53,778 nucleotides of DNA from Actinomycetota bacterium (lineage in GTDB: Bacteria; Actinomycetota; Acidimicrobiia; Acidimicrobiales; Ilumatobacteraceae): assembly GCA_017856115.1 (NCBI GenBank), contig JAFMFM010000007.1, positions 1-53,778 of the forward strand. Reading direction: 5' to 3'. Position numbers and translations under genes: made by a program. Shown one piece after another: positions 7,635 through 14,628 of the stretch. The number at the start of each line of letters is the position of its first letter. Within the stretch, counting starts at the first letter, position 1. Under the pieces are notes generated by a model. It saw only the letters and a list, made by a program, of their open reading frames with translations, did no database searches and was not told the DNA's origin.

Positions 7635-8030
7635 CTACGTTTCTGCGGGAAAGCAATATGTGATCTCGGTGAATTTGTCCTTCGCAAAAACATAAAGTAG
7701 TCGCAGAGGCTCGTCACCGACGTTGTACGCAACGTGTTCGGCATTCGGCGGAATCCATACGGCGTCACCACTTGCCACTGGATACGTCTCGTCATCGACC
7801 AACACTTCACCTCGACCGGAAACTACGTAGTACACCTCCGCAGGCTCGTGAGTATGTCCGCGCGATGGACGCTGTACACCTACGGGAACTTCGGCGATTC
7901 CCACCACCAATTCCTTCGTTGGCATCGTGTCACCGCCGATGAGTTCCCACCAACGCACCGCTCCACGGGAACTGCTGTTCCACTCGTTCACTGGCACGTT
8001 TCCAACCCGCGTAATCACCGGCTTGGCCAC
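7635..8030 (-). CDS. Single-domain cupin
   Basis: 131 residues. Cupin motif 1 (HTHEPAEVYYVVSGRGEV: H59, H61, E65) and motif 2 (P..AEH, H99) supply the usual metal ligands of a beta-barrel with bound Fe, Mn or Zn. Such small cupins act as dioxygenases, isomerases or sensors; nothing here decides which. The GTG start at 8030 is preceded by TACTGT with a 6-nt spacer, a leaderless arrangement. Confidence 0.8.
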   Translation of the reverse strand: MAKPVITRVGNVPVNEWNSSSRGAVRWWELIGGDTMPTKELVVGIAEVPVGVQRPSRGHTHEPAEVYYVVSGRGEVLVDDETYPVASGDAVWIPPNAEHVAYNVGDEPLRLLYVFAKDKFTEITYCFPAET

Positions 8031-8036
8031 GAGTCA

Positions 8037-8060
8037 ACAGTAGGCGGGCTGGGCTACTGT
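8037..8060. promoter_or_regulatory. Back-to-back leaderless promoters, cupin and SDR
   Basis: TACTGT occurs on both strands: minus 8042-8037, 6 nt before the cupin GTG at 8030, and plus 8055-8060, 6 nt before the ATG at 8067. The hexamers are 12 bp apart. Confidence 0.6.
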
Positions 8061-8066
8061 CTGGTC

Positions 8067-8102
8067 ATGCGTCTCGACGGTACGCGAGTGCTCCCCATAT
8101 GA
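8067..8102 (+). CDS. 11-residue leader peptide mimicking the SDR N-terminus
   Basis: ATG 8067 lies exactly 6 nt after TACTGT, so it is the first codon of a probable leaderless mRNA. The ORF encodes MRLDGTRVLPI and its TGA (8100-8102) overlaps the SDR start (ATGA at 8099-8102). The first 27 nt are an imperfect copy (22 of 27 identical) of the first 27 nt of the SDR gene, which begins MNLDGARVL. It looks like a duplicated start region, shifted 32 nt and therefore out of frame. Whether the peptide matters or only the act of translating it is unknown. Confidence 0.5.
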   Translation: MRLDGTRVLPI

Positions 8103-8884
8103 ACCTCGATGGTGCGCGAGTGCTCGTAACTGGGGCCTCCCGGGGTATCGGCGAGGCGATCGTTCGCGAGGCAGCCGTCCGCGGTGCACGAGTACTCGGG
8201 GTTGCCCGCAGCGCAGGCGCTCTCCAGGTGGCGATGCAGTCCGTCAATGGCGTTGCATTCCCCTGCGACTTGACGGTGGAGTCGGAACGTTCCGACCTGA
8301 TCGGGCGATTGGAGTCCATCCACGGCCCCATCGACGTGATCATCAACAACGCCGGAATCGACGACACCAAGATGTTCGCCCAGGCCTCGGCGCTCGACGT
8401 TCAGCGGGTCATCACACTCAACCAGGTGGTGCCGATCGAATTGATGCGTCAGGCAGTGCCGCTCATGCGCTCGCGCGGTCGCGGACACGTGGTGAACATC
8501 TCTTCGCTTGCTGCTGCTGGCGGGTTTGCGGGCATGACGCTGTACTGCTCATCGAAGGCGGGGCTTTCCGGCTTTCATCGCGTGCTTCGCCACGAACTGA
8601 AGGGGTCACCGGTCGGGCTCAGCCTCGTGGAGATTGGGCCGATCCCCACCGACATGCTGGCGAACGTAAAGAACGTACGTGCCGCGGAACGAATGTTTGC
8701 CCGACTACGACGTTTGCAGTTGTTACCCGAAGTACCGCGTGAGCGTGTCGCCAGAGCCGTTTGTGACGCCATCGAACGCAATACCGCAAGCGTTTGCTTG
8801 CCGAAGCGCGCGAGAATCTACCCGTTGCTGGTTGGATTGCCGCAGCGAATCGTGAACGCGATTACCGCCGACATCAAGCGCTAG
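8099..8884 (+). CDS. Short-chain dehydrogenase/reductase
   Basis: 261 residues. NAD(P)-binding motif TGASRGIG (11-18), NNAG (83-86), catalytic Ser in NISS (133-136) and Y149xxxK153. After the core the C-terminus is basic (KRARIYPLLVGLPQRIVNAI), as in SDRs that act on lipids at the membrane, but the substrate is unknown. Translation probably depends on coupling to the 11-residue leader ORF, because the promoter places the 5' end at 8067 and there is no Shine-Dalgarno sequence before 8099. The 3' end overlaps the convergent PhyH gene by 11 bp. Confidence 0.88.
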   Translation: MNLDGARVLVTGASRGIGEAIVREAAVRGARVLGVARSAGALQVAMQSVNGVAFPCDLTVESERSDLIGRLESIHGPIDVIINNAGIDDTKMFAQASALDVQRVITLNQVVPIELMRQAVPLMRSRGRGHVVNISSLAAAGGFAGMTLYCSSKAGLSGFHRVLRHELKGSPVGLSLVEIGPIPTDMLANVKNVRAAERMFARLRRLQLLPEVPRERVARAVCDAIERNTASVCLPKRARIYPLLVGLPQRIVNAITADIKR

Positions 8885-9698
8885 CAGGTACCCGCGACCA
8901 CAGCAGTGGATTCATCTCCGACTCGGCCCGCGACCCCGTGGGCAAGGATCCCAGCCATTTCTCGTGGTCGTCACGCTTCATTGGTCCGTCGATCTTCCCC
9001 ACTCGCGCGCCATCGGCAAAGTAGATGATGGTCATTACGGAACGCATGGTAGAAGTCTCGTTGGCTGGCGCCCCATGCAACGTCCAACCGCTATGGAATG
9101 TGGCGTCACCTGCACGCATCGGCGCATACGAAACGAGTTGGAGGTTTTCACGCTCGATGAGGGCATCGAAATACCGTTGTGAATCGTCGCCGATCGCCGA
9201 ACCCCCCAAGTCTCCCCGCTCGTGACTTCCCGAGGCGAACACCACGGATCCGACGTCGGTTGGAATGTCGACCAGGGGCATCCACATGGTGACGGTATGC
9301 GTCGTATCCAGTGGCCAATACACCTGATCCTGGTGCCATGGAGTGATTCCACCCCCGGGCTCCTTGAAGAGGGATTGGTCGTGATAGAGCCGCACAGCGT
9401 CTACTCCCATCAGGTCTGCGGCAACCCTGGCGAAACGCTTCGCAAATACGAATGCACGTGCCATTGGGTTCACCGTCCAGAGATTCATCGACTGGATGAA
9501 TGCCTTACCGTACGTATCTCGCTCGGACAGTGGTCGCAAATCACCGCTCAACTCGCGAGTGGCCTCCCGAATCGACGGCGCGAAAGTGGCGATCTCATCC
9601 GTGGACGCCAAGGAACGAATCGCGGCATGACCATCACGACGGAAATTCGTGGCGACAGTCGGATCAATTTCGATGGTGCAGTCGAGTTCTGCCGACAC
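8874..9698 (-). CDS. PhyH-family Fe(II)/2-oxoglutarate dioxygenase
   Basis: 274 residues. The facial triad is visible: H122xD124 in PWHQDQ and H208 in LHGAPAN, with R219 placed to bind 2-oxoglutarate. This is the phytanoyl-CoA dioxygenase family, hydroxylating an unactivated carbon; the substrate is not predictable. The GTG start is supported by TAGCAT with a 6-nt spacer (9710-9705). It is divergent from the PfkB kinase and convergent, with an 11-bp overlap, to the SDR. Confidence 0.87.
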   Translation of the reverse strand: MSAELDCTIEIDPTVATNFRRDGHAAIRSLASTDEIATFAPSIREATRELSGDLRPLSERDTYGKAFIQSMNLWTVNPMARAFVFAKRFARVAADLMGVDAVRLYHDQSLFKEPGGGITPWHQDQVYWPLDTTHTVTMWMPLVDIPTDVGSVVFASGSHERGDLGGSAIGDDSQRYFDALIERENLQLVSYAPMRAGDATFHSGWTLHGAPANETSTMRSVMTIIYFADGARVGKIDGPMKRDDHEKWLGSLPTGSRAESEMNPLLWSRVPASA

Positions 9699-12825: not shown

Positions 12826-13740
12826 CTACACCGTTTCGGGTTCGCGCGACAAACGGGCAGCGACACGCCCGATTTTGTCGATTCGGGCAATCAATGCCTC
12901 GCGAGCCTTCTCGCCTTCCGCCGACAAACCCGTTACGTCCTTCACCTTCCAGTGGCGCAACACCACCGGTTCGAGGATCTGTTCGTGGTGAATCTTGAAG
13001 TCGTAGATACCGGCATTGGCAATCTGCTTGGCAAGTTCGTTGAAATTCGGAATTCCCGTTCCGGGCATCGCGAAGTTTCGAACCGCCCGCTCGATACCGA
13101 TCATCATGTTGGACGGATCGGCTTCGAGCGCCGACGTCGCTAGGTCGCGGTAAAACAGGAAGTGCAAGTTCTCGTCGTTGCCGACGCGGAGCATCACATC
13201 CTGACCTGCCTGATCACCGATCAGTTTTCCGGTGTTACGGTGCGCAATTCGTGTCGCGAGTTCCTGCATGGAGAGATACGCGAGTGCTTCGAACAAATCG
13301 TCCGGTGCGGGTACTTGGGCACCGCGAACCTGTTGCATACGTGCGCGCTCGAGTTCCACCGGGTCGAGGGCACGGGTCACGGTGAGGTAATCGCGAATGG
13401 CGATGGAGTGCCTACCCTCCTCTGCGGTCCAGTTCCGTGCCCAGGCGCCGTATGCGCTGTCGCCGCCGAAGATGGTGCTGATGTCGCGGGTGTAGTACGG
13501 CAGGTTGTCTTCGGTGAGGAGGTTCACGAACAGTGATGCACGTACCGCTTCGGGAAGCGTCCAGCCGCCATCACCGAAGTCGGCATCGTCGGGCGACCAC
13601 GGCCGTTCCGGGTCGAAGTCTCGTCCACGACTCCACGGCACGTATTCATGGGGGAACCACTCCTTGGCAACGCCCATGTGGCGGTCGTACAACCTCGCCG
13701 CCGTGGGCTCCAGAACGTCGAGCAGTTCCGCGGGATTCAC
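12826..13740 (-). CDS. Acyl-ACP desaturase (soluble diiron, DesA type)
   Basis: 304 residues from GTG 13740. Diiron ligands appear as E77 (TED), E107-E-G-R-H111, E160 (MQELATRIAH) and D189-E-N-L-H193, the two ExxH-type pairs of acyl-ACP desaturases. The enzyme inserts a double bond into an ACP-bound fatty acid using O2 and reduced ferredoxin, relevant to membrane fluidity or special lipids. GTG 13740 is preferred over TTG 13755 because GAGGTG precedes it and because an 11-residue leader ORF ends in an overlapping TGA at exactly this codon. The promoter TAGGGT lies in the 3' end of rmlD. Confidence 0.88.
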   Translation of the reverse strand: MNPAELLDVLEPTAARLYDRHMGVAKEWFPHEYVPWSRGRDFDPERPWSPDDADFGDGGWTLPEAVRASLFVNLLTEDNLPYYTRDISTIFGGDSAYGAWARNWTAEEGRHSIAIRDYLTVTRALDPVELERARMQQVRGAQVPAPDDLFEALAYLSMQELATRIAHRNTGKLIGDQAGQDVMLRVGNDENLHFLFYRDLATSALEADPSNMMIGIERAVRNFAMPGTGIPNFNELAKQIANAGIYDFKIHHEQILEPVVLRHWKVKDVTGLSAEGEKAREALIARIDKIGRVAARLSREPETV

Positions 13741-13772
13741 TTCGCCACCTCGCAACCTCGGCTTGGCGTCAT
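13737..13772 (-). CDS. 11-residue leader peptide coupled to the desaturase
   Basis: ATG 13772 lies 6 nt after TAGGGT and opens an ORF encoding MTPSRGCEVAK. Its TGA overlaps the desaturase start codon as GTGA, the same overlap used at two other genes here. Unlike those, it is not a copy of the following N-terminus. The in-frame distance (32 nt) rules out its being an N-terminal extension of the desaturase. Confidence 0.45.
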   Translation of the reverse strand: MTPSRGCEVAK

Positions 13773-13776
13773 ACCG

Positions 13777-14628
13777 TCACCCTAACCGCAGGCGATCTAC
13801 GAGGCGAGACAGAGGCACCCGAAAATCATCGAGCAGTGGAATGCCTGCGATCATTAGTGCCCGATTCTCCAGCACCGAATTAGCAGGGCGTGGAGCCGGT
13901 CGTGGTGGCATCAATTCACTCGTCGTTACCGGTCGCACACGATTCGGATCGAGTTCTGCCGCACGTAGCACTTCGCGTGCAAACTCGTACCAACTCACCA
14001 CGCCCTGATTCGTAACGTGCCACGTGCCACTGCGCTGCCCTACTGCGAGGTGCACGATCATTCGCGCAGCATCATCGGCCATGGTGGGGTTGCCAATTTG
14101 ATCGTCCACGAAGGTGAGCGTGTCGTGTTGTGCAGCGAGCCTCAGGATGGTCTTCACCATGTTCGCTCCGTGGTAGCCACACACCCAGGAAATGCGCACG
14201 ATCGAATCGATGGACGTATCGACGGCGTGTTCCCCTACCAATTTGGATAGCCCGTATACCGATCGTGGGTTCGGCGCGTCGCTCTCCACGTACGCCGTAG
14301 GTTTGGTGCCGTCAAATACGTAGTCGGTGGAGATGTACACCACTCGCGCATCCACATTTCGTGCGGCGCTCACCACGTGTTCGGTGGCGGTGCCGTTGAT
14401 CAGCCTCGCTCTTTCGGCATCACTTTCGCATGCATCAACGGCGGTCCACGCAGCAGCATGAATGATCACATCGGGGCGCTCGCGAGATACAGCCACCTGC
14501 ACCGCAGTGGAATCGGTGACGTCGAGTTCGGCACGGGTCAACCCGGAGACCTGATGTCCGCCGGCTTGCGCTGCGTCAACCAGTTCGCGCCCCAACTGTC
14601 CGCCAGCGCCCGTGATGAGAATCTTCAC
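13777..14628 (-). CDS. rmlD: dTDP-4-dehydrorhamnose reductase
   Basis: 283 residues from GTG 14628; the reading frame continues upstream but only antisense-like residues are encoded there. The last step of dTDP-L-rhamnose synthesis: NADPH-dependent reduction of the 4-keto group. NAD(P) motif GAGGQLG (7-13), HAAAWTAVDACE, the STDYVFDG segment with catalytic Thr/Tyr area, and Y-G-L-S-K. The start lies 13 bp after the rmlB stop. Last gene of rmlACBD. Confidence 0.93.
   Translation of the reverse strand: MKILITGAGGQLGRELVDAAQAGGHQVSGLTRAELDVTDSTAVQVAVSRERPDVIIHAAAWTAVDACESDAERARLINGTATEHVVSAARNVDARVVYISTDYVFDGTKPTAYVESDAPNPRSVYGLSKLVGEHAVDTSIDSIVRISWVCGYHGANMVKTILRLAAQHDTLTFVDDQIGNPTMADDAARMIVHLAVGQRSGTWHVTNQGVVSWYEFAREVLRAAELDPNRVRPVTTSELMPPRPAPRPANSVLENRALMIAGIPLLDDFRVPLSRLVDRLRLG
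13779..13784 (-). promoter_or_regulatory. -10 element for the desaturase operon
   Basis: TAGGGT, six bases before ATG 13772, inside the last codons of rmlD. It gives the desaturase operon its own promoter although it is on the same strand as rml. Confidence 0.5.

Follow-up and report, generated by a model that had tools for sequence, protein, structure and literature searches.

Coupling of a leaderless small ORF to the gene that follows it is known from mycobacteria, where Shell et al. (2015; PMC4633059) described "coupled" small proteins encoded by leaderless RTG ORFs of 5–50 codons in which the TGA stop merges with the following start codon into RTGA. According to that account, RTGA couples 23 of the 220 leaderless small ORFs of M. 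tuberculosis to the next gene, which is above expectation, and there are mycobacterial examples with a conserved layout and a non-conserved peptide. Termination-reinitiation at overlapping stop and start codons has been described in both archaea and bacteria (Huber et al., 2019; PMC6728339). The polycysteine leaderless short ORFs of Canestrari et al. (2020; cited in PMC9031893 and PMC9094748) precede other genes, and a 5′-terminal AUG upstream of the true start of E. coli ptrB bears on its translation (cited in PMC9031893).

In this study, we describe an 11-codon mini-ORF that lies directly in front of an SDR-family oxidoreductase gene in an actinobacterial stretch of 53,778 nt (the window, Table 1). 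It is real, can be placed on the tree of its relatives and is mechanistically plausible, and it is most likely another instance of the known coupled class. Its sequence has the RTGA junction (ATGA in the window genome, G000, and in its sister, G009) and a length within 5–50 codons (11 in both). A 5′-end RTG, a further feature of the ORFs of Shell et al. (2015), is predicted here, and the promoter layout and nine of nine relatives fit it. The present case is described from sequence, in another actinobacterial family, whereas transcription start site and ribosome profiling data accompany the mycobacterial class. As for a layout that outlasts the peptide, the SDR mini-ORF has two carriers only and is absent in nine genomes, and a second mini-ORF in the window, in front of a desaturase gene, has seven carriers (five with RTGA, two with TGATG) and is absent in four.

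Unlike the class of Shell et al. (2015), the SDR mini-ORF consists of a tandem copy of the start of the very gene that it precedes. The ATGA overlap is the same as in the gene pairs of Huber et al. (2019), but the first cistron here has only 11 codons. In contrast to the ORFs of Canestrari et al. (2020), there is neither a cysteine run nor a sign of attenuation, and in contrast to ptrB the 5′ AUG is here the beginning of a whole ORF, with its stop on the SDR start codon. With the precedents of Shell et al. (2015) and Huber et al. (2019), the coupling device is therefore of a known kind, found in another family. The original prediction, made from the window alone, had read the locus as a start-site duplication turned into a coupling device; the duplication at a leaderless site, the shifted frame, the stop/start overlap and the lack of a Shine–Dalgarno sequence all stand, and its view of the device as undescribed is not supported, given the RTGA-joined ORFs reported in mycobacteria (PMC4633059). 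What is unusual is that the birth of the mini-ORF by start-site duplication is visible, and that it is testable. The state before (nine relatives), the state after (two sisters) and the duplicated sequence can all be seen, and the event can therefore be placed on the tree. The relevant passages of the mycobacterial account (PMC4633059) do not give the origin of coupled leaderless mini-ORFs, and a literature search of open-licence PMC papers found no precedent for a mini-ORF born from a gene's own start.

Table 1. Positions of the features discussed, numbered from the first nucleotide of the window
Feature	Position	Strand	Evidence or remark
SDR-family oxidoreductase gene, 261 aa	8099..8884	+	Pfam adh_short, 5.4e-44; most likely at the leaderless position formerly
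11-codon mini-ORF MRLDGTRVLPI*, built from the duplicated SDR start	8067..8102	+	Sister genome: MCLDGTRVLVV*, same offset
32-nt insertion, a tandem copy of the SDR start	8067..8098	+	Alignment; 2 of 11 genomes, one clade (100/98, SDR tree)
ATGA, overlap of the SDR start codon and the mini-ORF stop	8099..8102	+	Sequence
TACTGT, −10-like box of the putative ancestral leaderless SDR promoter	8055..8060	+	Spacing and relatives
Divergent cupin gene	7635..8030	−	Pfam Cupin_2, 3.8e-18
11-codon mini-ORF MTPSRGCEVAK*, 32-nt offset, overlapping the desaturase start (GTGA)	13737..13772	−	7 of 11 genomes
FA_desaturase_2 gene behind the mini-ORF	12830..13740 (interval searched against Pfam, with an unconfirmed gene end)	−	Pfam PF03405, 7.4e-61; gene start at 13740

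Tandem duplication of the SDR gene start

Direct comparison of positions 8067–8093 with the first 27 nt of the SDR gene (8099–8125) gives 22 of 27 identical nucleotides at an offset of 32 nt. On the plus strand, TACTGT is followed by a 6-nt spacer and by the ATG of the copy at 8067, that is, the copy occupies the place of a leaderless start, where the relatives have the SDR gene itself, and it is out of frame with the gene; its reading frame closes with a TGA (8100–8102) that overlaps the real ATG (8099–8101). The imperfect repeat, the peptide MRLDGTRVLPI and the overlapping TGA had all been predicted and were confirmed by the sequence, and the position and frame of the copy were likewise borne out. 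The overlap arises because 32 nt equals 2 modulo 3 and because the second SDR codon begins with A. It is thus a mechanical outcome of the offset and by itself not evidence of adaptation. A second codon beginning with A is also present in two relatives (AAC in G004 and AAA in G005) and not in the other seven.

The window genome is a 1.67-Mb draft in 77 contigs. Among 13 same-genus genomes compared, the SDR gene is present in 11; no match was found in G001 (77% complete) or G011 (64% complete), and on the G001 contig the end of the cupin gene is present and the SDR gene was not found in the 480 nt beyond it. In an alignment of the SDR start region (11 same-genus loci out of 15 extracted), the 32-nt insertion lies exactly between the −10 box with its 6 nt and the SDR start, and among the 11 SDR-bearing genomes only the window genome and G009, which form one clade, carry it. 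In G009, copy and gene start agree at 24 of 32 positions, and the copy also reads through 11 codons into an ATGA overlap. An insertion that is specific to one lineage and matches the adjacent segment in sequence is what a tandem duplication leaves, and it is most simply explained by one duplication event at the gene start before the two genomes diverged. The breakpoints are approximate, and it is possible that the duplicated unit was 30–33 nt long with later small changes.

Chance similarity can be ruled out by shuffling and by the confinement of the insertion to one clade. When the 128 nt upstream, copy included, were shuffled by mononucleotides, the best score was 20 of 27, and 22 of 27 was reached by none of 20,000 shuffles. 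Moreover, in a screen of 236 long ORFs (100,666 comparisons in a 315-kb sample of the window genome, window included), at least 19 of 27 was found in seven rows, and the one other row with 22 of 27 lay at a TTG within an ORF of L082 that is repetitive and rich in lysine and alanine. An assembly mis-join is unlikely because the insertion occurs in two separate draft genomes and its copy is not the same in both (4 of 32 positions differ). The presence of a 32-nt insertion at the identical position in G009, together with its absence at all nine other same-genus SDR loci, is decisive for the reality of the duplication.

In the nine relatives that lack the insertion (9 of the 11 SDR-bearing genomes), the distance from TAnnnT to the SDR ATG or GTG is exactly 6 nt; in the two carriers this spacing is 38 nt (6+32). 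A leaderless start was most likely the ancestral state of the SDR gene, because of this spacing in 9 of 11 genomes, because of a peak at the same distance in a genome sample, and because TACTGT also stands 6 nt ahead of the start of the divergent cupin gene. The peak was seen in the 315-kb sample, in which 19 of 903 candidate starts have TAnnnT at 6 nt, with 9, 10 and 7 starts at spacings of 7–9 nt and 0–5 at each of the other 26 spacings (0 to 29 scanned). On the minus strand, the TACTGT of the cupin gene (8042–8037) precedes a GTG, and both genes of the divergent pair therefore look leaderless.

Initiation signals and selection at the displaced start

None of GGAGG, AGGAG, GAGGT, GGAG, GAGG or AGGA occurs in the 20 nt before the start at 8099, in agreement with the predicted lack of a Shine–Dalgarno sequence, and no TAnnnT is found at spacings of 0–37 nt in either carrier; the sole TAnnnT within 0–39 nt is the old box, at 38. 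Transcription starting at 8099, which the original prediction had named as an outcome that would refute it, thus appears unsupported by the promoter sequence. Relatives that lack the copy and keep normal expression had been named as another such outcome, and the nine relatives without the copy correspond to it in form only, since there the gene itself is at the leaderless position; the upstream ATG, the overlap and the offset are kept in both carriers and absent in these nine. A scan of 7950–8250 for consensus sigma-70 promoters and terminators returned nothing on either strand, and the TACTGT promoter is therefore argued from its spacing and the relatives alone. No distinctive RNA fold was found (z 0.73 and −0.68). 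From this layout we infer a transcript start at 8067, which would make the mini-ORF ATG the 5′ end of the mRNA.

Since the duplication, the parts of the locus have evolved differently. Between the window genome and G009, the promoter stretch (8031–8066) has no differences in 36 nt. The copy differs at 4 of 32 positions, in three codons, all amino acid-changing, with ATG, length, frame and overlap kept; it drifts at about the synonymous rate of the SDR gene (dS 0.14). The gene itself has dS 0.144, dN 0.009 and dN/dS 0.063 in this pair, within the range of 0.038–0.087 in the 18 other pairs listed (of 45), most of whose ratios are rough because dS is above 1; L005, with the gene cut by a contig end, was left out of this comparison. 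The peptide is therefore without visible constraint and the gene product is still needed. By this measure, the SDR gene is still under purifying selection despite its displacement from the leaderless position, and the locus may be regarded as a natural experiment in which a leaderless gene was pushed 32 nt into its mRNA. Retention of the mini-ORF is weak evidence in itself, because there are two carrier species only and because 86 or 87 of the 96 possible single substitutions would leave it intact. Sequence comparison shows in which lineage the start was duplicated, how the ancestral locus was most likely laid out, that the promoter has not changed and that purifying selection on the SDR gene has continued.

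Probable reinitiation and alternative explanations

We think it probable that the tandem duplication of a leaderless SDR start created a leaderless 11-codon mini-ORF and that the SDR protein is now made by reinitiation. The first ~30 nt of the gene would have been duplicated in an ancestor shared by two sister species, and the SDR promoter would now feed the copy which, owing to the 32-nt insertion and the A of the second codon, ends in a TGA within the ATGA on the real start. Ribosomes would load at the 5′-terminal AUG, terminate after 11 codons and start again on the SDR AUG that overlaps the stop, and SDR synthesis would thereby be coupled to mini-ORF translation. With no TAnnnT at 0–37 nt and no Shine–Dalgarno sequence before 8099, reinitiation after a 5′-AUG mini-ORF is the natural route to the SDR protein; we infer it as the main route, together with a start of transcription at 8067 and translation of the mini-ORF.

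It is also conceivable, although we consider it unlikely, that the insertion is a tolerated accident, the SDR protein being made in sufficient, perhaps lower, amounts through direct initiation at 8099, either internally or by scanning, on an mRNA with a 32-nt leader, and translation of the mini-ORF being incidental or mildly inhibitory. The near-neutral rate of the copy, its restriction to two species and the mechanical origin of the overlap all agree with such an accident, as does the report that the pervasive small ORFs of M. tuberculosis are mostly without codon-level selection (PMC9094748). Initiation at 8099 would nevertheless have to proceed without a Shine–Dalgarno sequence, while an overlapping stop and start offer the shortest path to reinitiation (PMC6728339), and at the desaturase locus the mini-ORF layout survives heavy drift. 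That locus bears equally on the improbable case in which the 5′-terminal AUG of the copy is a ribosome-loading signal from which ribosomes reach 8099, with no need for peptide or stop: 5′ regions starting with AUG can indeed change translation of a downstream gene in E. coli, as summarized in a review (PMC9031893), but the kept frame and stop overlap of the desaturase mini-ORF would be left unexplained.

If transcription now began afresh at 8099 or close to it, the SDR gene would be leaderless again and the copy would lie outside its mRNA; −10 boxes can be degenerate, yet nothing positive points to such a shift, and the absence of a nearer TAnnnT in either carrier together with the unchanged old box makes it quite improbable. 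A programmed −1 frameshift, by which copy and gene would be fused into a protein with a doubled N-terminus, could be read from the run of four C that the window genome has at the copy's end, but G009 reads CTCGTCGT there, with no such run and the same offset, and inspection revealed no X XXY YYZ heptamer and no conserved slippery site; its chance is very small. We give hardly any credence to amino acid attenuation by a leader peptide, despite the place of the mini-ORF before a metabolic gene and the existence of mycobacterial cysteine attenuators of similar build (cited in PMC9031893), as neither MRLDGTRVLPI nor MCLDGTRVLVV contains the single-residue run that attenuation calls for and 7950–8250 holds no terminator-like site.

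Coupled candidates elsewhere and the desaturase locus

The 315-kb sample of the window genome was also screened for TAnnnT followed after 5–7 nt by a short ORF ending on a gene start. Six loci (seven rows) were found at leaderless spacing, two of them in the window, against 2.25 expected from other spacings (21 background rows; Poisson 0.027 for six and 0.008 for seven), and coupled candidates are therefore only modestly enriched. Three of the six loci are not conserved beyond the sister at best: the layout of L095:5560 occurs in its own and the sister genome only (7 of 13 loci aligned), and that of L091:7110 and L089:937 is kept in none of three and none of two relatives, respectively (4 of 12 and 3 of 13 loci aligned). 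Most of the loci outside these alignments were matches stopping short of the gene start. At L090:2308 (minus strand), a four-codon mini-ORF is kept in all 10 genomes matched (11 loci, two from one genome). It reads V-V-F-A, V-M-L-A or V-I-L-A, begins 6–7 nt after TACCGT or TACGGT and overlaps the start of the next gene, for whose protein no Pfam family was found.

The desaturase mini-ORF has an offset identical to that of the SDR mini-ORF, 32 nt, and is present at 7 of 11 orthologous loci; at the other four the gene lies directly at TAGGGT plus 6 nt. Promoter and spacer are identical at 12 of 12 positions across the seven carriers, and the mini-ORF is identical at only 12–16 of 32 positions between three divergent carrier groups. 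Yet all seven keep the ATG, have neither an indel nor an earlier stop, and end on a stop that overlaps the gene start, by RTGA after 11 codons in five and by TGATG after 10 codons in two; in the latter two the overlap becomes ATGA if the gene starts one codon earlier. This suggests that selection in this genus would keep the layout and not the peptide at this locus, and a layout kept through drift supports coupling as a probable real device in this genus; the carriers are related to each other. The desaturase mini-ORF might be led by a Shine–Dalgarno sequence, GGTGA, 4 nt before its ATG, and is therefore not a perfect parallel of the SDR case.

As a more general and tentative proposal, which we hold to be possible but short of probable, tandem duplication of a gene's own start may be a route to stop/start-coupled mini-ORFs in actinobacteria rich in leaderless genes. 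The copy would take over the leaderless promoter together with a favourable 5′ codon context, and in one of three insertion phases an RTGA that keeps the gene alive could result; the 32-nt, 11-codon spacing shared by the SDR and desaturase loci would then be a preferred ribosome hand-over distance.

A start duplication as the origin of the desaturase mini-ORF itself was mostly rejected, the identity to its own gene start being 7–12 of 27. In comparisons of the mini-ORFs with all 11 orthologous gene starts, L098 was the single exception, equalled by 17 of 2000 shuffles; for the remaining six, 82 to 1968 of 2000 shuffles did as well. In the window (13737–13784, minus strand), the TAG stop of the reading frame before the mini-ORF seems to lie within the −10-like TAGGGT. 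The two loci also differ in their nearest relative: around the desaturase start (13300–13900), G005 (88%) stands closer to the window genome than does the sister G009 (86%), and at the SDR locus (7800–8890) the values are 96% for G009 and 77% for G005. It is possible that this difference reflects recombination.
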